The translations under genes were made by a program, and so were the position numbers. Below are positions 2,963-38,296 of a stretch of DNA of 42,227 bases, piece after piece. The notes beneath the pieces are model-generated. The model searched no databases. It was given only the letters and a program-made list of their open reading frames with translations, and was not told the DNA's origin. The stretch spans positions 1 through 42,227 of IMG/VR virus record IMGVR_UViG_3300047276_000213; one strand, 5' to 3'. This DNA is from a virus. Every line of letters begins with the position of its first letter. Positions within the stretch are counted from its first letter, which is position 1.

Positions 2963-2975
2963 TTCCACTAGTCAA
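2963..2975 (+). promoter_or_regulatory. Early leader element, copy 1 (CCACTNGTCA)
   Basis: TTCCACTAGTCAA sits 24 bases before the start codon at 2999. The core CCACTNGTCA recurs at 3158, 3623, 6396 and 7831, each time shortly before a plausible start codon. Function unknown; promoter, operator or translation leader are all possible. Confidence 0.5.
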
Positions 2976-2998
2976 CAACAACAGGGACGCACCTAGCT

Positions 2999-3151
2999 AT
3001 GGCATTCACTGCACTTTATTCTGACGGCTACAAGCGCACAATTGCCGGGCCAATTCATTCAATTGAAGTGGCAATTCAATACGCTCAACGTCTTGAGGCA
3101 TGGTTCAACAATCCAGAGCGTAAGCTTGTTTCTGTTGAGCCTAAGCAGTAA
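2999..3151 (+). CDS. Small early protein of unknown function (50 aa)
   Basis: A 50-codon frame starts MAFTALYSDG and ends with the basic, polar tail RKLVSVEPKQ. No family is recognised. The start is supported by a GGGA-containing leader (ACAGGGACGC, 2981-2990), which also precedes the gene at 4458. It is the first gene after the long non-coding region, the position of T7 class I early genes that remodel host metabolism. Its brevity, its position and the conserved leader argue that it is real; there is no sequence evidence for what it does. Confidence 0.55.
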   Translation: MAFTALYSDGYKRTIAGPIHSIEVAIQYAQRLEAWFNNPERKLVSVEPKQ

Positions 3152-3157
3152 TAACAC

Positions 3158-3170
3158 ATCCACTAGTCAC
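3158..3170 (+). promoter_or_regulatory. Early leader element, copy 2
   Basis: ATCCACTAGTCAC shares ten consecutive core bases with copy 1. It is followed directly by AAGGAG and then the ATG at 3184, so the element abuts the ribosome binding site. Confidence 0.5.
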
Positions 3171-3183
3171 AAGGAGACACACA

Positions 3184-3363
3184 ATGTTCCGCATCATCCA
3201 AACAGTTCACCACGACAACGGAAACAAACCAGTTCGTTATTGGTACACATCAACTGACACACAAGCTGAGGCTACTGCTATTGCTGATCGATTGAATGAC
3301 CGTAACAAGTTCGCTATCGATGATCCTCGATTGATTCTTGTTACCTACCACGTCGAACAGTAA
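3184..3363 (+). CDS. Small early protein of unknown function (59 aa)
   Basis: This 59-codon frame begins MFRIIQTVHHDNG and has a strong AAGGAG ribosome binding site about eight bases upstream. The middle holds an alanine-rich, probably helical segment (QAEATAIADRLNDRN) flanked by likely beta strands, a compact alpha/beta pattern typical of small phage inhibitors. No catalytic motif or membrane segment is seen and I do not recognise the family. It lies 32 bases after the previous gene and 25 before the next, in an apparent early operon. Confidence 0.6.
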   Translation: MFRIIQTVHHDNGNKPVRYWYTSTDTQAEATAIADRLNDRNKFAIDDPRLILVTYHVEQ

Positions 3364-3388
3364 CCCATCCACACATCAAACAAACATC

Positions 3389-3610
3389 ATGGAATCACTC
3401 AGCCTGCGCTTCACACTTGATCGATGCGCTGATATTGAGGACTTACTTGAATCTGATTCAATTGATTCAGTGCAAAGTCTTGATGATACTTTTGTTGTTA
3501 TTGTCACGGACGTAGATGAAACTCTTGTTGAATCACTTAACCCCGATGAATTGGCAGAATTCTACGGTATTGATTCAGAGTTTCTAATTGCTGTTGAAGT
3601 TGAAGATTGA
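3389..3610 (+). CDS. Acidic early protein of unknown function (73 aa)
   Basis: From the ATG at 3389 the protein is 73 residues and strikingly acidic: runs such as DIEDLLESDSIDS and DELAEFYGIDSEF give it a strong negative charge. It lacks cysteines apart from one near the N-terminus (DRCADIED) and has no membrane segment. Small acidic phage early proteins often mimic DNA or bind host polymerase or nucleases, but that is inference from charge alone. The leader carries a degenerate copy of the recurrent early element (ATCCACACATCAA) but no clear Shine-Dalgarno sequence. A longer frame starting with TTG at 3338 would overlap the previous gene and is less likely. Confidence 0.6.
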   Translation: MESLSLRFTLDRCADIEDLLESDSIDSVQSLDDTFVVIVTDVDETLVESLNPDELAEFYGIDSEFLIAVEVED

Positions 3611-3622
3611 TTCAACCAACCA

Positions 3623-3635
3623 ATCCACTTGTCAA
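3623..3635 (+). promoter_or_regulatory. Early leader element, copy 3
   Basis: ATCCACTTGTCAA lies 19 bases before the ATG at 3655 and is followed by CAAGGAG. It starts 13 bases after the stop of the acidic gene. Confidence 0.5.
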
Positions 3636-3654
3636 ACAAACAAGGAGTCCACCA

Positions 3655-4368
3655 ATGACTAAACCCAAAGGCTTCATCATCGACCGTGGTCTATCACCTA
3701 TCGACGGTCAACCTTACGTTGCTATTCTCACCCTTGAAAGCAACAATAGAAAGACTGGTAACATGGCACAAGTTTGGATCTTGTGTGAAGATATTAACCC
3801 TGTGGAAGCTGTCAAGACTGGCAAGGATGTCACGATCTGCGGCAATTGTCCACACCGTAAGCAGCAAGATGGCAGCCGCTCTTGTTATGTGAACGTAGGC
3901 CAGGGACCGAATAGTATTTGGAAGGCATACAAACGTGGATCTTATATTGACGCTACATCATGGGATCTCAAACAGTATGCACGCATTGTTGGCAACAAAC
4001 GAATTCGCTGGGGTGCCTATGGTGACCCGAGTGTGATTAAACCTGGCATTGTGAATGCTTTGTCTGCCTATTGTCAGGGACACACCGGCTACACTCACCA
4101 ATGGCGCAGTGAGTTTGCACAAGTATTTAAGGGTATCTTTCAAGCCTCATGCGATGGCTTCCAAGACTACCTAGACGCTACTGCTCACGGCTGGAAAACA
4201 TTCACTGTTGTCCACAAGAACGCAACACCAAACTATGCAAAACAATGCCCCGCAACTGTTGAGAATAGTGCTGCCCAGTGTGCAACTTGCAAGTTGTGCG
4301 ATGGTGCTCGGGTTGATGTGTTTGTCCACGCTCATGGTACTGGTGCCAAGTATGTAACTGTTGCTTAA
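3655..4368 (+). CDS. Cysteine-rich conserved phage protein, unknown function
   Basis: The 237-residue product starts at ATG 3655, which has AAGGAG upstream. Ten cysteines are present, six of them in two clusters: ICGNCPHR (C62, C65) with C77 shortly after, and C198 followed by C209-x2-C212-x2-C215. That arrangement suggests a zinc site or iron-sulfur cluster. Between them are SCYVNVGQGP (76-85) and KRIRWGAYGDP (115-125), which I recall as conserved in a phage family annotated only as a domain of unknown function. It is the largest early gene and ends just before a terminator. No enzymatic role can be assigned from sequence alone. Confidence 0.75.
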   Translation: MTKPKGFIIDRGLSPIDGQPYVAILTLESNNRKTGNMAQVWILCEDINPVEAVKTGKDVTICGNCPHRKQQDGSRSCYVNVGQGPNSIWKAYKRGSYIDATSWDLKQYARIVGNKRIRWGAYGDPSVIKPGIVNALSAYCQGHTGYTHQWRSEFAQVFKGIFQASCDGFQDYLDATAHGWKTFTVVHKNATPNYAKQCPATVENSAAQCATCKLCDGARVDVFVHAHGTGAKYVTVA

Positions 4369-4389
4369 ACCTATCCACTAAGCAAAGCA

Positions 4390-4415
4390 AAGGGGTCACA
4401 CTGCCCCTTCTTTTT
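4390..4415 (+). terminator. Rho-independent terminator
   Basis: AAGGGG (4390-4395) and CCCCTT (4404-4409) form a six-base-pair stem with an eight-base loop, followed by CTTTTT. It starts 22 bases after the cysteine-rich gene and would end the first early transcript. Confidence 0.8.
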
Positions 4416-4457
4416 GTGCCCACCAAATTCGTTACGACATCACAGGGACGCACCCAA

Positions 4458-4808
4458 ATGTTTGAACCTTCACGCTTTGAGATTCTTTTGCGTACACAGC
4501 GACTCATCCACATGGGTGAATGGCTAGAACGTAATGAATCAATCTTTGCAGCCTTAATCGAAGGTCTTTCAGATGCAGTAGACCTCCATCTTATGGATGA
4601 AGAGATTGACACATGGGTCGCTGATGAATTCCACCAACTATCAAGCGCCCTTTCTTCGTGCATCCGCAACCTTACTGATTACAAGGATTCACTCACCAAG
4701 ACAGAGCACAACTACAAGCTCATTCTCAATTATCCAAGACACCCGCACGTCAAAAAGCCCACCGTCATTCTTGACGAACAGCAATCCCAAGAATCCACCA
4801 AATCATGA
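4458..4808 (+). CDS. Early protein of unknown function (116 aa)
   Basis: The frame from ATG 4458 encodes 116 residues. It is largely helical in appearance (RFEILLRTQRLIHMGEWLER; EIDTWVADEFHQLSSALSSC) with a polar, proline-containing tail, and has no membrane segment or known catalytic motif. The leader ACAGGGACGC at 4442-4451 is identical to that before the gene at 2999, which decides this start over a GTG at 4416 lying in the terminator T-run. Its stop overlaps the start of the next gene by four bases. Function unknown. Confidence 0.65.
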   Translation: MFEPSRFEILLRTQRLIHMGEWLERNESIFAALIEGLSDAVDLHLMDEEIDTWVADEFHQLSSALSSCIRNLTDYKDSLTKTEHNYKLILNYPRHPHVKKPTVILDEQQSQESTKS

Positions 4809-4957
4809 CCTTCTTCAAACAAAAGAACACAGTCAGAATCACCATCACGATCCCTGGATACATCCATGATCGCATGATTGCTGTCTCTAACGATCAGGGA
4901 CGCAGCATCTCTAATCTTTGTGCCTTCATCTTGGAAAACCATCTCAAGGACTCATGA
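4805..4957 (+). CDS. Ribbon-helix-helix (CopG/Arc-like) DNA-binding protein
   Basis: This 50-residue protein has the layout of a ribbon-helix-helix repressor: a beta strand of alternating residues (NTVRITITIP, 8-17), a first helix (IHDRMIAVSND) and, after a Gly-Arg-Ser turn, a second helix ISNLCAFILENHL. Dimers of such proteins insert the strand in the DNA major groove. The start overlaps the previous stop (ATGA) and its own stop overlaps the next gene. In a phage with an integrase it could control early or lysogeny-type promoters, or regulate its own operon; the repeated elements and palindromes nearby are candidate targets. The family call is by pattern only. Confidence 0.7.
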   Translation: MTFFKQKNTVRITITIPGYIHDRMIAVSNDQGRSISNLCAFILENHLKDS

Positions 4958-5103
4958 ACAAAACACACATCATCATTGAAACCGCAGCCTTCTTTCTGTT
5001 CTCGGTGTTGATCTCATCGATGACCGTCTTAGGTGCTCTGGGTGTTGATCCCTTTGTTGCCACTGAAACCACCTACCAACACCGGGAGGCACAGCAGCGA
5101 TGA
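4954..5103 (+). CDS. Small single-span membrane protein (49 aa)
   Basis: The protein has one clear hydrophobic segment, roughly residues 10-31 (AAFFLFSVLISSMTVLGALG), after a short polar N-terminus and before a polar C-terminal tail of about 18 residues. Start and stop both overlap neighbours by four bases, so it is translationally coupled in the cluster. It might act on the host membrane early in infection, for example in superinfection exclusion, but nothing identifies a function. An upstream extension exists in the same frame but would run into the preceding gene. Confidence 0.6.
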   Translation: MNKTHIIIETAAFFLFSVLISSMTVLGALGVDPFVATETTYQHREAQQR

Positions 5104-5306
5104 ATGGATGGGTCGCCACGTTTGGGATCAAACAACCCCAAGGAGGTTGGCTGGTTACTGAGCAAACCATTGTAGAAGCTGTTGACTATCCATCAGCTTT
5201 TAAATGTGGCATTGCCTTGTGTCCACGAGGTGAGTCAGTCATGGATGTACAACTCATCCCTGAAGATAAAGATCCGCTTGACTATGACGCCATTGATGTT
5301 ATCTAA
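5100..5306 (+). CDS. Small early protein of unknown function (68 aa)
   Basis: The 68-residue product has an N-terminal stretch suggestive of beta structure (MNGWVATFGIKQPQGGWLVTE), two cysteines (FKCGIALCPRGE) and an acidic tail ending DPLDYDAIDVI. No family is recognised. The ATG overlaps the stop of the membrane-protein gene by four bases and the next gene overlaps its end by eleven, consistent with a tightly coupled early operon. Confidence 0.55.
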   Translation: MNGWVATFGIKQPQGGWLVTEQTIVEAVDYPSAFKCGIALCPRGESVMDVQLIPEDKDPLDYDAIDVI

Positions 5307-5451
5307 CAAGCACGCTTATGTCATCCTCGATATGTGGATGCACATCGTCGCGATCTTCTACGACAACAAAAAGGCTCTGGCCTACGCAGAAGTCTTAAGA
5401 CGAGAGGCACCTGATTCTATGTTCACCGTAGAAGAACACCCAATCATCTAA
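5296..5451 (+). CDS. Small conserved-looking cyanophage protein (51 aa)
   Basis: From ATG 5296 the 51-residue protein reads as a compact alpha/beta fold: strands YVILDMWMHIVAIFYD, a helix KKALAYAEVLRREAP, then a strand FTVEEHPII. This strand-helix-strand pattern recurs in tiny cyanophage early proteins, but I cannot name a family. The start overlaps the preceding gene by eleven bases; there is no strong Shine-Dalgarno sequence, so translation probably relies on coupling. A downstream ATG in the same frame is possible. GGGC followed by six T lies just after the stop and may be a weak terminator. Confidence 0.5.
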   Translation: MLSNKHAYVILDMWMHIVAIFYDNKKALAYAEVLRREAPDSMFTVEEHPII

Positions 5452-5521
5452 TGGTCGGGCTTTTTTCTATCTTTTATCCGCCTACCAGAGAATAACAACA
5501 ATGCCTGTGGCCTCAAAACTA

Positions 5522-5563
5522 CAGGGACGCTCACCACCTAAGTGGTAAGTGGGTGCGTCTCTG
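5522..5563 (+). promoter_or_regulatory. Long imperfect hairpin in intergenic gap
   Basis: CAGGGACGC (5522-5530) pairs with GCGTCTCTG (5555-5563) through eight Watson-Crick pairs and one G-U pair; inside, ACCAC (5533-5537) pairs with GTGGT (5542-5546). The left arm is the same ACAGGGACGC word that precedes the genes at 2999 and 4458, but here it is sequestered in a stem. It lies 42 bases before the next ATG and could regulate it. Confidence 0.5.
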
Positions 5564-5604
5564 CTTTCCACTGGATCGCAAGATCTAGTCAACTGTTCCT
5601 ATTG

Positions 5605-5787
5605 ATGTCTTCAATCAATGAGCTAACTCTTCTTGATGCACTGCTGCTGATGTGTGAGCACTATCAACAGTTGCTAGCACAAGATCCTTTGGATCCATCA
5701 CTCATGGATGCACTCAACTGTATCCATGACTGCGAACAACGACAGATGAGGCTGACACATGGCAAGGAAAGATCCATTTCCCAATGA
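5605..5787 (+). CDS. Small early protein of unknown function (60 aa)
   Basis: This 60-residue protein is mostly helical in appearance: NELTLLDALLLMCEHYQQLL, a short proline/aspartate break (DPLDPSLMD), then ALNCIHDCEQRQMRL and a basic tail. It has three cysteines and no membrane segment. The ATG at 5605 is chosen because upstream GTG starts fall inside the hairpin at 5522-5563. Its last 29 bases overlap the next gene. No function can be assigned. Confidence 0.5.
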   Translation: MSSINELTLLDALLLMCEHYQQLLAQDPLDPSLMDALNCIHDCEQRQMRLTHGKERSISQ

Positions 5788-6055
5788 ATGGGAGGAAGTT
5801 CACAATCTCAAGGACGCTGACATCGAAACAGCTACGGCAGAAGAGGTGCTGGAAGAAGTCATGACTTGGCATCTACCCGAACCTTACTGCGCTGTCATTC
5901 GTGTTTACGACCGCAAAGAAAACAAGCTGCGTGAGTATGCATACAAGATGGAATCCAAAGCCCATCAACGTATTAAGGACGCAGCCTCTTCTGATGATGA
6001 GGTGACCATCCTAACCAATTCATTGATTGGTACAGTTAACTATTTACCTGAATGA
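5759..6055 (+). CDS. Early protein of unknown function (98 aa)
   Basis: The 98-residue protein is acidic in its first half (residues 8-40, rich in E and D, including ETATAEEVLEEV), with a central strand pattern CAVIRVYDRKENKLREYAY and a C-terminal helix KAHQRIKDAASSDDE. No known domain is recognised. Its start lies within the end of the previous gene and its stop overlaps the next start by four bases, indicating coupled translation in the early cluster. Confidence 0.55.
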   Translation: MARKDPFPNEWEEVHNLKDADIETATAEEVLEEVMTWHLPEPYCAVIRVYDRKENKLREYAYKMESKAHQRIKDAASSDDEVTILTNSLIGTVNYLPE

Positions 6056-6198
6056 CTGATCTTCTCCAACTTCCTGGTGAGCCTGCATTCAAGGGTTCAC
6101 AGTTTACAGCCCAAGAGTACAGCGATGCGTGGGGCGATGACTGGCACACCGTCTTTATGCAAATCTTGCATCCTGAGGATACCGAGTTGCCAGACTAG
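6052..6198 (+). CDS. Small acidic protein of unknown function (48 aa)
   Basis: The frame encodes 48 residues beginning MTDLLQLPGEPAFKGSQ, with an acidic, aromatic middle (QEYSDAWGDDWHTVF) and an acidic end. The ATG overlaps the previous stop (ATGA), the arrangement used throughout this cluster, which is the main support. Function unknown. It is the last gene before a 180-base gap in which I see no convincing feature. Confidence 0.5.
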   Translation: MTDLLQLPGEPAFKGSQFTAQEYSDAWGDDWHTVFMQILHPEDTELPD

Positions 6199-6379
6199 TA
6201 ACAACGTACTATCCTAGACCCCTGCTCCTTCTGCTCTATGACTTTATTCGACCTCTTTGGTTTATATGTTGGCTGGGATCCTTGTGGTGCAGCATGGTCG
6301 ACTCATATCTACAGCAGATCTATACAAATTCAAGCCGGAAGGCTGTTGCTAGGATGCGACTGGTTCTTCAAGCCTCCTC

Positions 6380-6748
6380 ATGGCCGAAACATCGACTCCA
6401 CTTGTCAAACCATTGACAGACGAGGTGATGTGGAAAATCTGCCGCATTCACGAGTTGTTTCGCACCAAGGACGTTGAAGTACCGGGTCAATTGGTGTCTG
6501 TCTTCTGCTACATCGCCTCTCACAATCCCTGCAATCTGCAATCCATAGAAGCTGAGTTGGGAATGAGTCCGAATAGCACAAGTCGCAACACTGATTGGCT
6601 GAGTTCTCACCACCGTCTCGGTAAACCTGGCATGGGTCTGATCACCAAAAAGCGCGACCCTCTTAATGGTCGTCGCCGCATTGTGGAGCTGACTGATAAA
6701 GGGTACGAGATGATTGATCAAATCAAGGAGATCCTCGATGGTCACTGA
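6380..6748 (+). CDS. MarR-like winged-helix regulator
   Basis: The 122-residue protein has a winged-helix layout: helices around GQLVSVFCYIASHN, a helix-turn-helix reading CNLQSIEAELGMSPNSTSRN, then a wing in which GLITKKRDPLNGRRRIVEL matches the MarR-type basic wing, and a C-terminal helix KGYEMIDQIKEILDGH. Such proteins bind DNA as dimers. It directly precedes and overlaps the integrase by eleven bases, so it may control integrase expression. Starts at ATG 6380 or ATG 6428 are both possible; the latter follows a GAGGTG and a copy of the recurrent CCACTNGTCA element, which otherwise would lie inside the gene, and would give 106 residues. Confidence 0.75.
   Translation: MAETSTPLVKPLTDEVMWKICRIHELFRTKDVEVPGQLVSVFCYIASHNPCNLQSIEAELGMSPNSTSRNTDWLSSHHRLGKPGMGLITKKRDPLNGRRRIVELTDKGYEMIDQIKEILDGH
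6396..6408 (+). promoter_or_regulatory. Early leader element, copy 4
   Basis: CTCCACTTGTCAA matches the element found upstream of other early genes. It lies inside the MarR-like frame if ATG 6380 is used, but 19 bases before the alternative start at 6428. Confidence 0.4.
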
Positions 6749-7616
6749 CTCTGTTAAGACGTGGGGTCAAGCAGTTGACTTCACCTTTAAAACCAGAGAC
6801 GCATGGAGACACGGGTCGTCTAAGCCCACCAACACCTACAACTGCCAGCATTTCACCAATGCTGTTGGCAATTCCTTTCCATTGCTCAAAATCACGCCGC
6901 TCCTGATGAATCAGGTGTGCATCGATTTGGAAGATGAGCGTGGCCTCTCCGGTTCCACTATCAACCGTGTGATTAGTGCTGTCTCCACAGTGCTCAATCA
7001 CTGCAGTGCGATGGGTGTGATTGATTTCACCCCACCAAAGTTCCAGCGCCGCAAGGAGGGGGAGCACAGGCTGACCTGGTTTACCAAAGAAGAGATCGAG
7101 ACCATGCACCAGGCCGCCTTGGATCCGTTTGCACGGGATGACATTGCCTCGATCATTGTGGTCGCCGCCTACACCGGCATGCGACAAGGTGAGCTGCTCA
7201 AGCTGCGTGTCAAGGATGTCGATCTGGGCACCAACCAGATCTATATCGGTGGTCGCGATGGCTTTGAGACCAAAGGTAAGAACTTCAGGGCTGTGCCCAT
7301 CCATGGACGCATCCAAGAGTTAATGCATAACCGCTGCGAATACGGTCGTAGGGACACCCTCATCTTTGGTGATGATTGGCCGTGTGGAAAGGATCAACTG
7401 ATCCGTGCTTTCAAAAAAGTAAGGAATTACGCCGTTAAGAAAGATGACAAGTGGACTTTCCACTCCCTGCGCCACACGTTCGCCACTTGGTGCGCCGAAT
7501 CCGGTGTGCCGATACGCACCCTCATGGGCCTGATGGGGCACGCCAATGTCGAGACAACATTACGTTATGCAAAAGTTACGGACCAAGCCCGTTACGACGC
7601 AATCAACTCGATATGA
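6738..7616 (+). CDS. int: Tyrosine-family site-specific integrase
   Basis: From ATG 6738, preceded by AAGGAG, the protein is 292 residues. The N-terminal half is a SAM-like core-binding domain. The catalytic domain shows the tyrosine recombinase residues in order: Arg in TGMRQGELL, HSLRHTFAT supplying H-x-x-R, MGHANVETT supplying the GH motif, and the nucleophile Tyr in TLRYAKV. All are intact, so the enzyme is probably active. It catalyses strand exchange between attP and a bacterial attB. A half tRNA-Leu about 100 bases downstream is the likely attP. Similar integrase/attP pairs are known in marine T7-like cyanophages such as P-SSP7, although stable lysogeny is rarely seen. A TTG start at 6714 is less likely. 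Confidence 0.93.
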   Translation: MVTDSVKTWGQAVDFTFKTRDAWRHGSSKPTNTYNCQHFTNAVGNSFPLLKITPLLMNQVCIDLEDERGLSGSTINRVISAVSTVLNHCSAMGVIDFTPPKFQRRKEGEHRLTWFTKEEIETMHQAALDPFARDDIASIIVVAAYTGMRQGELLKLRVKDVDLGTNQIYIGGRDGFETKGKNFRAVPIHGRIQELMHNRCEYGRRDTLIFGDDWPCGKDQLIRAFKKVRNYAVKKDDKWTFHSLRHTFATWCAESGVPIRTLMGLMGHANVETTLRYAKVTDQARYDAINSI

Positions 7617-7721
7617 CTCCGTTTAAGCGCCGACTAGGCGTGTCTAGCAACCCCCTCTGCTACGCTCTTTGAGCACCCAGCGGACAGGTTTCTCACCTGG
7701 ACTCATCGCTGGAATCCCCAC

Positions 7722-7760
7722 GCGGATGTGGCGGAATTGGTAGACGCGCTAGTTTCAGGT
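7722..7760 (+). other. Putative attP core: 5' half of a tRNA-Leu gene
   Basis: The sequence reads as the 5' half of a cyanobacterial tRNA-Leu: acceptor strand GCGGATG, TG, D-arm GCGGAATTGGTAGACGC, a junction base, then anticodon stem CTAGT and loop TTCAGGT with anticodon CAG at 7756-7758. The following bases do not complete the stem, so no functional tRNA is encoded. Placed about 100 bases after the integrase stop, this matches the known pattern in which a cyanophage attP copies part of a host tRNA gene so that integration restores it. Confidence 0.82.
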
Positions 7761-7792
7761 TCGCTTCAGGACTGATCACGCGAGTGGACAGG

Positions 7793-7818
7793 AGCCGGGT
7801 CAACGCCCGGCTTTGCTT
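7793..7818 (+). terminator. Rho-independent terminator after attP
   Basis: AGCCGGG (7793-7799) pairs with CCCGGCT (7806-7812) around a six-base loop, followed by TTGCTTT. The seven-pair GC-rich stem would stop transcription from the integrase region before the RNA polymerase gene. Confidence 0.75.
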
Positions 7819-7830
7819 TAGGAGACAAGG

Positions 7831-7843
7831 TTCCACTCGTCAA
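7831..7843 (+). promoter_or_regulatory. Early leader element, copy 5
   Basis: TTCCACTCGTCAA lies just after the terminator and 46 bases before the RNA polymerase ATG. It links control of the polymerase gene with that of the small early genes. Confidence 0.45.
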
Positions 7844-7889
7844 AGGATCTATATCGGGATCTAGCGACAACCATTCCATTTGAGACAAC

Positions 7890-10229
7890 ATGGTTTCACC
7901 TGCTCTCACCGAGCAACAGATCGAACTGGAGAAGCGTGCCATTGCCTACGGGCGGGAGCGGCTTCTCGATCAAACACGCAAGCTGGAAGAGCGCTCCTAC
8001 GGGTCGGCAACGGTCTATGGGTCCGCCAGCATCCAGGCGGCCCTGGGAGCGGCCTCACGGGTCATCGAGGACACGCTGAACCGCATCCACGAAGGTAAGA
8101 ACGGGGTGGAGTTCGCCACCATCCACCAGTACCTCGCCGAGATCGAACCAGAGGCAGCAGCAGCCATTGCGTTGAAGCTGACCTTCGACAAGGTGTTCAG
8201 CCCAAAGGACAAAGCCAATGAGATCGCCAATGTGATCACAGCCATTGGCCAGGCTCTGGAGCAGGAGTGTCAGCTCCGCTGGTACGAGTCACAGGATCCT
8301 GAGCTGTATGACCGCATCAAGCGTCAGTACTGGCACAGCGCCTGTGGCACCCAGCAGAAGGCCACGGTGGCTCGCACGATGATGAATCGGCACGAGCATC
8401 ACTGGGACAACTGGCAAACTGCCACAAGGGCGAAATTGGGTGGCTGGCTTCTTGACTGTGTGATGAAAGCCACTGGCTGGTTTGACAAGCACATGGTTGC
8501 TAGAGACAAAAAGCGCCTAACGCTGATCGTTCCAAGCCTTCTCTTTGCAATGCAAAAGGAGGAGCTGATGAAGGATGCGTTGATGTTTGCTCCAATGGCG
8601 TGGCCCATGTTGGTCCCACCACGAGACTGGAGTCCTATCAAGGCTGGTGGGTACTTACTGAACGAGGTCATGCATGGCCATGAGATGGTCCGCAGGGGCG
8701 ATGGCGGATTAGTACAGGGGAACACGCCACTCCTGTTTTTGAACAAGCTCCAGAAGGTTGCCTACACGCTCAACGAGTTCATCGTCGACGTGGCTGAGAC
8801 CTTGATGGAGCATCAGTACAAGGTCGGTAAGTTCTTGCCGATCATTGAGCTGCCCCTCCCCAACAAACCGTTCGACATCGCGGAGAACGACGAGGCTAGG
8901 CACGAGTACAGACGGCAAGCAGCAGAGGTGTTGAACCACAACGCTGCGTCATTCAAACGGTCCTGCCGTACACGAATGACCATGGAGACCGTCAAGATCT
9001 TCAAGGGGAAAGACAAGTTCTATCTCCCGTGGTCCTTTGACTATCGAGGTCGCACGTACCCGATCCCAGCCTTTCTCACCCCACAAGACACTGACTTCGG
9101 TAAGTCTCTACTGAAGTTTGCTGAGCCGTCGTTCATGACGGATGAGGCAGAAGCGTGGCTGGCATTCCAAGTAGCAACTTGCTACGGAAATGGGCTGGAC
9201 AAAGCCACGATGCAAGAGCGTCAGGATTGGGTTCTTCAAAACCAAAGCCTGATTTCTGCTGTTGCAACCAATCCACTTGGCAATTTGTCTCAATGGGAAG
9301 TTGCGGATGAGCCGTGGCAGTTCCTCGCTGCATGTGAGGAGTACAACGCTTGTGTCATTGAATGCACAAGAAGTTGGACAAATCTGCCGGTTGCTATTGA
9401 CGCTACGTGCTCAGGACTGCAAATCCTGGCTGGTATGGCGAGAGATCAATCAACTGCAAAGTTGGTGAATGTCTTTCCGTCAGATACACCGCAGGATGCT
9501 TACAAAGTTGTGGCAGAAACGGCTAAGCCAAAGCTGCCAGATCACCTAGCTGTTCTTCTTGATCGGAAGGTCACAAAGAGAACAGTGATGACCATTCCAT
9601 ACAACGCCACCAAGCATTCCAACAGGGCTTACATCCGTGAAGCTTTGAAAGAAAAGGGTGCTGAGTTCACACCAGATGAACTCACTTTGATTGTTAATGC
9701 AGTCAGAGAAGCGATGTATGAGGTTGTCCCCGGTCCAATGCGTGTCATGGATTGGATCAAACAAGAAGTTGGCGCAGCGTTCAAACGCGGCGTAGATCAC
9801 CTTACTTGGGAGACACCTTCAGGGTTCATCGTCAAACAAAACAGACGTAAACGCAAGGTATCAACGATCAAGTTACAGATCCTTGGTCGTTGTGAAGTGA
9901 ACCTAACTACAGGTCACGAAGGACCAGATGTTGCTGGTCACAAGTCCAGCACAGCTCCCAATCTTATTCACTCATTAGATGCTTCGATCTTGCATCAAGC
10001 ATTCCTGAAGTTCAACGCACCGTTCACGGTGATCCACGATTCAGTGCTTTGTCGGGCTACTGATATGGGCACATTGAATCGCGTAGTCAGGGAAACCTAC
10101 TGCGAAATCTTTTCATCCAGCAATCCTCTTTTGGATTTTGCTGACGCCATCGGCGCAGAGACAGAGCCACCAATCATTGGTGATCTCGATCTTGATTCCG
10201 TCCTTGAATCCACCTATTTCTTTTGTTAA
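7890..10229 (+). CDS. T7-like single-subunit DNA-directed RNA polymerase
   Basis: The 779-residue enzyme transcribes phage middle and late genes from phage promoters. The palm carries the catalytic aspartates D504 (AIDATCSGLQ) and D717 (VIHDSVL), matching T7 D537 and D812. The fingers motif R559-KVT-K563 continues to Y571, matching T7 R627, K631 and Y639; the glycine that follows the tyrosine in T7 is Asn here (PYN). It is about 100 residues shorter than T7 RNAP, mostly in the N-terminal part, as in marine podoviruses. It follows a terminator and has its own leader. The stop overlaps the SSB start (TAATG). Phage promoters could not be defined by eye. Confidence 0.95.
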   Translation: MVSPALTEQQIELEKRAIAYGRERLLDQTRKLEERSYGSATVYGSASIQAALGAASRVIEDTLNRIHEGKNGVEFATIHQYLAEIEPEAAAAIALKLTFDKVFSPKDKANEIANVITAIGQALEQECQLRWYESQDPELYDRIKRQYWHSACGTQQKATVARTMMNRHEHHWDNWQTATRAKLGGWLLDCVMKATGWFDKHMVARDKKRLTLIVPSLLFAMQKEELMKDALMFAPMAWPMLVPPRDWSPIKAGGYLLNEVMHGHEMVRRGDGGLVQGNTPLLFLNKLQKVAYTLNEFIVDVAETLMEHQYKVGKFLPIIELPLPNKPFDIAENDEARHEYRRQAAEVLNHNAASFKRSCRTRMTMETVKIFKGKDKFYLPWSFDYRGRTYPIPAFLTPQDTDFGKSLLKFAEPSFMTDEAEAWLAFQVATCYGNGLDKATMQERQDWVLQNQSLISAVATNPLGNLSQWEVADEPWQFLAACEEYNACVIECTRSWTNLPVAIDATCSGLQILAGMARDQSTAKLVNVFPSDTPQDAYKVVAETAKPKLPDHLAVLLDRKVTKRTVMTIPYNATKHSNRAYIREALKEKGAEFTPDELTLIVNAVREAMYEVVPGPMRVMDWIKQEVGAAFKRGVDHLTWETPSGFIVKQNRRKRKVSTIKLQILGRCEVNLTTGHEGPDVAGHKSSTAPNLIHSLDASILHQAFLKFNAPFTVIHDSVLCRATDMGTLNRVVRETYCEIFSSSNPLLDFADAIGAETEPPIIGDLDLDSVLESTYFFC

Positions 10230-23476: not shown

Positions 23477-23547
23477 TCTTCCATAGTCCAGTGGTCAGGA
23501 CATAGGCGACATGCCGAAGAGTTCGGGTTCGATTCCCGATGGAAGAA
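23477..23547 (+). tRNA. tRNA-like element with shortened anticodon loop
   Basis: Most of a tRNA cloverleaf is present. Acceptor arms TCTTCCA and TGGAAGA pair over seven bases; D-stem GTCC/GGAC encloses AGTGGTCA with A14, G18-G19 and A21; T-arm TCGGG-TTCGATT-CCCGA is perfect; the variable loop is AGAGT. The anticodon arm is odd: TAGGC and GCCGA pair at four of five positions around only five bases, GACAT, instead of seven, and lack the usual U33. No CCA is encoded. It may be a degenerate tRNA, or a tRNA-shaped RNA signal for processing between the small head genes and the capsid message. Confidence 0.65.
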
Positions 23548-36421: not shown

Positions 36422-38296
36422 ATGGCTGTCACTCAGAATACCTACACAGGGGACGGAACTACCGTCCTCTTTTCTTTTACCTTCCCATACCTTGAGACTA
36501 CCGACATCAAGGTTTCCTTGAACGGTACAATTACAACTGCATACACCTTAGCCAACGCTACCACGATCCAATTCAATACAGCTCCTGCTAATGGAGCTGC
36601 TATTCGGATTTATCGGGTGACTGATGATGCAGCACTTGCTGCTCAGTTCTATCCGGGTTCTGCTATCCGCTCTCAGGATCTGAATGATAACTTCACTCAG
36701 AACCTATATGTGACGCAGGAGTCGAATAGGGATGCTACGTCTGCTATCTCAACGGCTAACAGCGCTACGACAACGGCTAACACCGCTCTGAGCACCGCCA
36801 ATGCAGCTACTGCAACGGCTAACACTGCGTCTACTAATGCTTCGGCTGCTGTAACCACAGCTAACACGGCTAGCACCAACGCTTCGGCTGCTGTGTCTAC
36901 TGCCAATAGTGCGGCTACAAACGCTGCAACAGCTATCAGCACGGCCAATTCAGCTACTACCACGGCTAATACAGCCCTTGCTAACGCTGCTACTGCCATT
37001 AGCACGGCTAACAGTGCTGTGTCTACAGCTAATACTGCCTCTTCAAACGCAACGAGTGCAGTTAACACTGCTAATTCTGCTTCTAGTGCGGCTTCCTCTG
37101 CTGTTAGTACAGCTAATACGGCTTCTACCAGTGCGGGTAATGCGGTTACTACGGCTAACACAGCTTCAAGTACTGCCTCTACAGCTCTCTCCACCGCCAA
37201 CACAGCTAACAGCAAAGCTGATCAGGCCATTGCTGCTGTGTCTAATAGCATTAACTTCCAGCTTAAAGCTAATGTAGCTGCGATCCCTGCATCTCCTGCT
37301 AACGATACTTACATCGAAGTGCAGGATTCAACAGGATTGGAGAGCTTCACTCCTCTTGCTGGTAAACCTGCTGGATTTGTTGGAGACTCTGGTCTCAGTG
37401 TTCGTCTTCGTTATACCACTGCTGGCTCTACGTGGAACTGGCTGAACTACTACGCTAATAACGCTGAGACTCGTTATCTTAAGCTTACTGGGGGTACTCT
37501 TACTGGAAATATCACTCTTGCTGGAGCACCATCTAGCAACCTCCATCCAGCTACCAAAGCGTATGTTGATGGGTATGTAAGTTCTATTAACGGTGATATT
37601 GGCTCTCTGTCTAGCACTAAGCTTGATTCAGCTACTGCTGCAAGTACCTACCAGACACAAGCTGGTATGTCGTCGTATTTGACTACGGCTAACGCCGCAT
37701 CGACGTATCAAACCCAGTCCGGCATGTCGTCTTACTTGACGACCACTGCTGCTGGTACGACTTATGCACCGCTTGCTAGTCCGACATTTACAGGTACGGT
37801 CACGATCCCTGCTGGTGCTTCCATTAGTGGTTACTTGACTTCTGCTACGGCTGCTAGCACTTACCAGACCCAAGCTGGTATGAGCAGCTATGTACCAACA
37901 AGTGCTATTGGTACGACCGTTCAGGCATACAACGCTAATAACGCTGTTACTGACACTGCTCAGACGTTTACCAAAGCTCAACGCGGCGCCTACGTCACCC
38001 TCACCGATGCAGCAACGATTGCCACGGACCTGAGCCTTGGCAACCAGTTCCAGGTCACCCTTGGTGGCAATCGCACCCTTGGTGCCCCAACGAATGTTGT
38101 CGCTGGTCAGAGCGGTGTGATCCGTGTGGTCCAGGACGGCTCGGGAGGCAGGACACTCGCCTTCAACAGTGTCTTCAAGTTCCCTGGGGGCACGGCACCG
38201 ACGCTCACCACAACGGCCAATGCCGTGGATTTACTGGCTTACCACTGCGAGACAACGACTCGTATTGCGGTCCGCTTCATCGGTGACGTGAAATGA
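36422..38296 (+). CDS. Tail fibre protein (gp17-like)
   Basis: The 624-residue protein begins with the T7-tail-fibre N-terminal domain that attaches to the tail (TYTGDGTTVLFSFTFPYLET; SAIRSQDLNDNFTQNLYV). Residues 109-269 are 23 consecutive seven-residue repeats of the ISTANSA type, likely a trimeric coiled-coil stalk. Then come a beta-rich segment with PATKAYVDGYV, three AASTYQTQxGMSSY repeats and a C-terminal domain (NQFQVTLGGNRTLGAPTNVV) typical of phage fibre tips. From about base 37,975 the DNA is visibly richer in G and C, suggesting the tip was exchanged. Confidence 0.92.
   Translation: MAVTQNTYTGDGTTVLFSFTFPYLETTDIKVSLNGTITTAYTLANATTIQFNTAPANGAAIRIYRVTDDAALAAQFYPGSAIRSQDLNDNFTQNLYVTQESNRDATSAISTANSATTTANTALSTANAATATANTASTNASAAVTTANTASTNASAAVSTANSAATNAATAISTANSATTTANTALANAATAISTANSAVSTANTASSNATSAVNTANSASSAASSAVSTANTASTSAGNAVTTANTASSTASTALSTANTANSKADQAIAAVSNSINFQLKANVAAIPASPANDTYIEVQDSTGLESFTPLAGKPAGFVGDSGLSVRLRYTTAGSTWNWLNYYANNAETRYLKLTGGTLTGNITLAGAPSSNLHPATKAYVDGYVSSINGDIGSLSSTKLDSATAASTYQTQAGMSSYLTTANAASTYQTQSGMSSYLTTTAAGTTYAPLASPTFTGTVTIPAGASISGYLTSATAASTYQTQAGMSSYVPTSAIGTTVQAYNANNAVTDTAQTFTKAQRGAYVTLTDAATIATDLSLGNQFQVTLGGNRTLGAPTNVVAGQSGVIRVVQDGSGGRTLAFNSVFKFPGGTAPTLTTTANAVDLLAYHCETTTRIAVRFIGDVK
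36746..37228 (+). repeat. 23 tandem 21-bp units coding for a heptad stalk
   Basis: The frame reads as 23 uninterrupted heptads such as ISTANSA, TTTANTA, VSTANTA and STNASAA, with Ala at the seventh place throughout. Units are diverged at DNA level, so expansion is old. The period of exactly seven residues favours a trimeric coiled coil whose length can change by whole repeats. Confidence 0.9.
37632..37900 (+). repeat. Three AASTYQTQxGMSSY repeats in the tail fibre
   Basis: The fibre contains AASTYQTQAGMSSYL, AASTYQTQSGMSSYL and AASTYQTQAGMSSYV, the first two nearly adjacent and the third after an insert containing ASPTFTGTVTIPAGA. These are probably shaft beta-repeats and may recombine among phages. 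Confidence 0.8.

Follow-up and report, generated by a model that had tools for sequence, protein, structure and literature searches.

The locus studied here raises the question of what a short word that recurs ahead of early genes and of the RNA polymerase (RNAP) gene of a phage is for, and which protein may read it. The word was found in IMG/VR record IMGVR_UViG_3300047276_000213, the whole 42,227 nt of which were analysed (hereafter, the window). The window is a T7-like cyanophage with the gene order terminase, ThyX, small early ORFs, MarR-like gene, tyrosine integrase, attP, terminator-like hairpin and phage RNAP. T7-like cyanophages integrate into their hosts, but lysogens have not been recovered, and a search for homologues of the known repressors of the lytic cycle was negative (Shitrit et al., PMC8776855). 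For comparison, we used ~120 RNAP-bearing loci from IMG/VR as well as Synechococcus phage S-SRP01, which is the closest named isolate (82% RNAP identity), and five other named phages from an annotated collection. A scan of GTDB for prophages returned a single distant match.

A search of the whole window located exact copies of the 10-mer CCACTNGTCA on the + strand at 2965, 3160, 3625, 6398 and 7833. Thus, all five exact cores listed in an earlier note on this DNA are real, at positions two nucleotides higher than given there. The degenerate forms that it had placed at about 3365 and 4373 are likewise real, at 3369 and 4375, with copies at the same places in the relative L009 (4375 also in L040 and L138), and a variant at 9273 inside the RNAP gene was absent from its list. 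A reversed control pattern of the 10-mer gave 0 matches in the window, and a whole-window search for the 10-mer with one mismatch revealed no enrichment (14 found vs 12.9 expected); the signal of the 10-mer is that of the exact word together with its position and clustering. When the 12-mer TCCACTNRTCAM was searched with up to one mismatch, the early region, that is the 6.9 kb from -5.4 to +1.5 kb around the RNAP start, contained 9 matches as compared to 0.67 in shuffles, and the other 33 kb contained 2. The features of the window are as follows.

2964..2975, + strand: site 1 (TCCACTAGTCAA), 24 nt ahead of the first early ORF (ATG 2999); kept in L009
3159..3170, + strand: site 2 (TCCACTAGTCAC), in the gap ahead of ORF 3184-3363
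3368..3379, + strand: site 3, degenerate (TCCACACATCAA), in the gap ahead of ORF 3389-3610; L009 counterpart TCCACTCATCAA
3624..3635, + strand: site 4 (TCCACTTGTCAA), in the gap ahead of ORF 3655-4368; identical in L009
4374..4385, + strand: site 5, degenerate (TCCACTAAGCAA), past the stop of ORF 3655-4368; counterparts in L009, L040 and L138
6348..6353, + strand: GCTAGG box, putatively promoter-like, counterpart of the relatives' CTAG-like box ahead of the MarR-like gene
6380..6748, + strand: MarR-like winged-helix regulator, candidate binder (gp0.7 family, phrog_9665)
6397..6408, + strand: site 6 (TCCACTTGTCAA), within the coding sequence at the 5' end of the MarR-like ORF; upstream of the gene in other lineages
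6738..7616, + strand: tyrosine integrase (PF00589, E 7e-29)
7722..7762, + strand: attP core, formed by the 5' part of a tRNA-Leu gene; other Int+ relatives use the same segment
7777..7788, - strand: inverted attP-side site (TCCACTCGCGTG), 16 nt from the attP core
7794..7819, + strand: hairpin with T-rich tail, terminator-like, between the attP-side and RNAP-side sites
7832..7843, + strand: site 7 (TCCACTCGTCAA), putative operator in the RNAP leader
7860..7865, + strand: TCTAGC box; site 7 starts 28 nt ahead of it
7890..10229, + strand: T7-type single-subunit RNA polymerase
9272..9283, + strand: site 8 (TCCACTTGGCAA), at codon 461 of the RNAP gene

Four copies are located 4-12 nt past a stop codon, three of these also lying 10-19 nt ahead of the next start, and several reach into the ribosome-binding region. 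Placement in leaders, as the earlier note had described it, applies to several copies in stop-to-start gaps some tens of nucleotides long, but not to that at 6398, which falls within the first codons of the MarR-like ORF (ATG 6380). In the window, the supported early sites are all on the + strand and the attP-side copy is inverted. The single exact - strand match to CCACTNGTCA, at 7445 within the integrase gene, was left uncounted, as it lies in a protein-conserved stretch of the integrase and is weaker in L009. A sigma-70 promoter scan was uninformative (7 found vs 8.7 in shuffles).

Some other elements of the window were recorded as observations in their own right. A second recurring word, (A/G)GGACGCA, is present at 2982, 4443 and 5522 as well as in L011, L040, L046, L077 and L081, often just ahead of start codons; it also occurs in Int-less relatives and probably represents ribosome-binding context. 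The long noncoding stretch at 2286-2963 is kept in L009 and contains repeats of the GTTGCATGCAAC type, the hairpin TTCTCTCATCGTGAGAGAA and, near 2917, a T-arm-like GGGATCGACTCCC; its last 103 nt fold at z -2.0, and Rfam applied to 2286-2970 returned a weak chance match and no convincing family. Within this stretch, a block at 2399-2472 with AAAAATTTCTTAAGTCAATACG and a GGGGCGCAG..CCCC hairpin (also in L001, L009 and L011) is conserved between phages with different early regions. In the late region, ARAGORN predicts a tRNA-Cys with anticodon aca at 23477-23547, where Rfam also scores a tRNA, the only match in the Rfam scan, and a tail-fibre-like ORF (36422-38296) carries ten overlapping copies of a 69-nt Ala/Thr/Asn-rich repeat at 36752-37219.

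Absence from related phages had been named beforehand as an observation that would count against the element. Most relatives indeed lack the exact word, most exact copies being common to L009 only, but the equivalent places hold a lineage-specific counterpart: TCCACTNGTCAA in the window, TSCACWWGTGSA in class B (form TCCACTAGTGGA), TGCCCTAAGCAM in class C (form TGCCCTAAGCAC; S-SRP01 and its kin), TCCACTWGRSCA in class D, and further words in other relatives. Own-class sites in the early region number 4-9 vs 0.05-0.7 expected, and the patterns of the other classes are mostly at about background in the same phages, with the exception of L041; since classes and patterns were drawn up from the same data, these within-class counts are partly circular, which applies less to the RNAP scan and the covariation with MarR described below. 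Some class B sites are perfect palindromes of 12 bp, as is expected for a protein that binds as a dimer, and class A sites are only half-palindromic. S-TIP37 harbours six matches (two mismatches or fewer) to its own leader word TGCCTAGCTGCA vs 0.45 expected. Marine relatives further removed from the window show clear sites at three places only: the RNAP leader, the MarR-like gene and the attP side. L041 has kept an integrase and a class C MarR-like protein (91% identical), and its operator sites are degenerate and its attP core is altered (GTATACG); it is perhaps a decayed, virulent-like derivative.

The RNAP leader of the Int+ relatives presents attP, a terminator, the word and a CTAG-like box in this order. 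The spacer is variable, and in 40 of 42 phages the word starts 28 or 29 nt ahead of the box, so that it stands where the -35 region would lie relative to the box. This arrangement persists down to ~53-58% RNAP identity to the window and is ambiguous by eye in P-SSP2 and S-CBP3; in Int-less relatives, an ORF abuts the RNAP gene and no such leader arrangement is seen. The idea that the word forms part of an early promoter was thus half right, as far as its fixed place at the -35 position of the RNAP leader is concerned.

Which protein goes along with the word was assessed by Mantel tests, which work on pairs and remove shared ancestry only partly. Across 22 phages, similarity of the leader word correlated with similarity of the MarR-like protein (rho 0.55, p 0.0003) and of its recognition helix (0.59), as compared to 0.16 for the integrase and -0.01 for RNAP. 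Partial correlations were 0.54 for MarR given integrase and -0.12 for integrase given MarR, and RNAPs that are 95% identical can carry different words. Taken together, these phages display sites of lineage-specific sequence at recurring positions that covary with the MarR-like protein. The previous proposal of a shared operator, to be bound by either a MarR-like or a ribbon-helix-helix (RHH) protein, is well supported for the former; the RHH protein was rejected, with rho 0.03 as compared to 0.69 for MarR across an identical set of 13 phages, and with L040 keeping the sites in spite of having no detectable RHH gene.

The candidate binder comprises 122 aa in a single winged-helix domain and is a gp0.7-family protein like those of P-SSP7 and other T7-like cyanophages; phrog_9665 (transcriptional regulator) matches it at 1.5e-34. 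By Foldseek, the solved structures nearest to its AlphaFold model (pLDDT 90.7) are MarR repressors; the matches include MarR, AbfR, MexR and MepR at E <1e-3, among them DNA-bound AbfR and MarR. As it remains under the Pfam MarR cut-off (PF01047, 14 bits vs 24.6), the regulator is MarR-like by its predicted fold and not a Pfam MarR member by sequence. Its gene is located directly upstream of the integrase gene. A site lies upstream of the MarR-like gene in most Int+ lineages and just inside the gene in the lineage of the window, which suggests self-regulation; the spacing between site and box at this gene differs between lineages.

The word also occurs within the RNAP coding sequence. When the own leader word of each of 30 close phages was compared with all 2297 ungapped codon-alignment positions of RNAP, codon 461 alone matched each phage's own word (z 15.1, next 4.7; 0/100000 permutations), and the peak was also present in a set of 27 phages with RNAP DNA identity <95%. 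Similarity of this site correlated with that of MarR (rho 0.48), but not with that of RNAP itself (-0.01). Of 777 residues, 20 distinguish the RNAPs of the window and L008, and 9 of these fall in the 18 codons around site 8. TCCACT is partly due to conserved Asp-Pro-Leu codons, and the informative bases are hence those of the right half and the class C form. Equivalent scans of the integrase, MarR and SSB genes revealed no comparable position (best z 3.2-3.6), and the site was not found in the RNAP genes of marine relatives.

At the other end of the leader, an inverted copy lies 16-17 nt from the attP core, at the same offset in most Int+ phages, and fits each phage's own word better than those of others (own vs cross, 7/20000 permutations). 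The tRNA-Leu segment used as attP has been described for S-TIP37 and P-SSP7 (PMC8776855). The constant distance hints at a second role of the MarR-like protein, possibly in recombination.

We consider it likely that the word is a putative operator of the phage's own MarR-like regulator, which would act, probably as a dimer, as a repressor with dispersed sites. L041, with a 91% identical MarR-like protein and degenerate sites, speaks against the operator reading, as do the more distant marine relatives with their smaller set of sites and none inside RNAP. Furthermore, the rigid distance of 28-29 nt to the CTAG box could suit an activator equally well. As an activator, the protein would occupy the -35 place of promoters whose -10-like CTAG box is poor, and would bring host RNAP to phage genes; lambda cII is an activator of comparable action. 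Besides the spacing, kept in 40 of 42 phages over a variable spacer, it is in favour of activation that the MarR protein of P-SSP7 has been considered to redirect transcription to the phage (PMC12753301). However, activation leaves unexplained the sites 10-19 nt ahead of starts, inside RNAP and inverted at attP, and the spacing at the MarR-like gene varies among lineages, all of which makes it unlikely.

The inverted copy next to attP, constant in distance and favouring the own word, raises the alternative that the words serve recombination, either as arm-type sites of the integrase or as excisionase sites with the MarR-like protein as directionality factor. Apl of phage 186 has such a dual role (PMC7498355). 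Nevertheless, most copies are up to 5 kb away from attP and the integrase adds nothing once MarR is controlled for (-0.12), and we regard this explanation as quite improbable; the MarR-like protein may rather serve recombination in addition. That the word precedes early genes and RNAP would also fit a promoter element of the phage RNA polymerase, which we hold to be very improbable given the lack of correlation between word and RNAP similarity (-0.01), the different words that accompany 95% identical RNAPs, and the small share of matches (2 of 11) in the 33 kb beyond the early region. There is just as little probability in an RNA-level element of early leaders, that is a target for translation control, as the earlier note had also suggested, or ribosome-binding context: several copies do extend into the ribosome-binding region, but others are located in the middle of RNAP, upstream of promoter-like boxes and inverted beside attP, and the class B palindromes and the covariation with a DNA-binding protein argue against it as well.

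If the MarR-like protein is such a repressor, the sites at the -35 place of the RNAP promoter would allow abundant regulator to block the start of RNAP transcription, and the site at or near the regulator's own promoter would limit its synthesis. Sites in the short gaps between early genes and inside RNAP would impede the elongating polymerase in the early operon and along the RNAP gene, and the lytic programme may thereby be held back around the time of integration. In this scheme, what we infer from the genomes compared is that the protein binds and represses, that its sites act as roadblocks and that it takes part in a lysogeny-like state. A more far-reaching proposal would be that these phages possess a full immunity system of the stoperator type, based on a repressor of MarR fold and divided into heteroimmune classes, with an RNAP-internal operator maintained at the cost of amino-acid changes and the same protein acting at attP; it is possible, but we put it forward tentatively and with more doubt than belief.

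The putative operators point to a repressor-operator system in phages thought to have no repressor. A named regulator with a defined set of sites makes the question of lysogeny testable, also in S-TIP37, for which a genetic system exists, and the site inside RNAP, if true, would clearly exemplify how a regulatory DNA word can remodel the coding sequence of an essential enzyme. We found no description of dispersed sites of this kind in cyanophages in the open-access literature. A close parallel is provided by cluster A mycobacteriophages (L5 gp71, Bxb1, TipsytheTRex), which possess many short intergenic stoperators, mostly oriented with transcription and one at the repressor gene, whose sequence diverges together with the repressor (PMC6550527, PMC9283540). 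Multiple dispersed sites in short gaps, their orientation with transcription and co-divergence of site and regulator are common to both systems. In contrast to L5 gp71, the protein described here has no Stoperator domain and consists of a single winged helix of MarR fold, probably acting as a dimer on palindromic or half-palindromic sites. Moreover, the sites are fewer (~5-9 vs 20-30 in cluster A), belong to T7-like phages, and include one inside the RNAP gene.

P2 Cox is a small protein that binds early control sites and the attachment site alike. Similarly, phage 186 Apl serves early control sites and the attachment site as one small protein, but both belong to other protein families and use other site types, the Apl sites being direct repeats one helix turn apart (PMC7498355); in our case, the dual role is only suggested by the attP-side site. 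Among T7-like phages, the authors of the LUZ100 study describe a MarR-integrase operon and cite the model of Boeckman et al. 2022, in which MarR represses RNAP via sites in the promoter (PMC10134795). In LUZ100 and temperate-like T7 phages, as in the window, the MarR-like gene is thus directly upstream of the integrase gene, whereas the accessible part of that paper describes neither dispersed sites in early genes or inside RNAP nor covariation. Control of the RNAP promoter by MarR has therefore already been proposed for other temperate-like T7 phages, and what is new here is a dispersed, co-diverging and partly intragenic set of sites.
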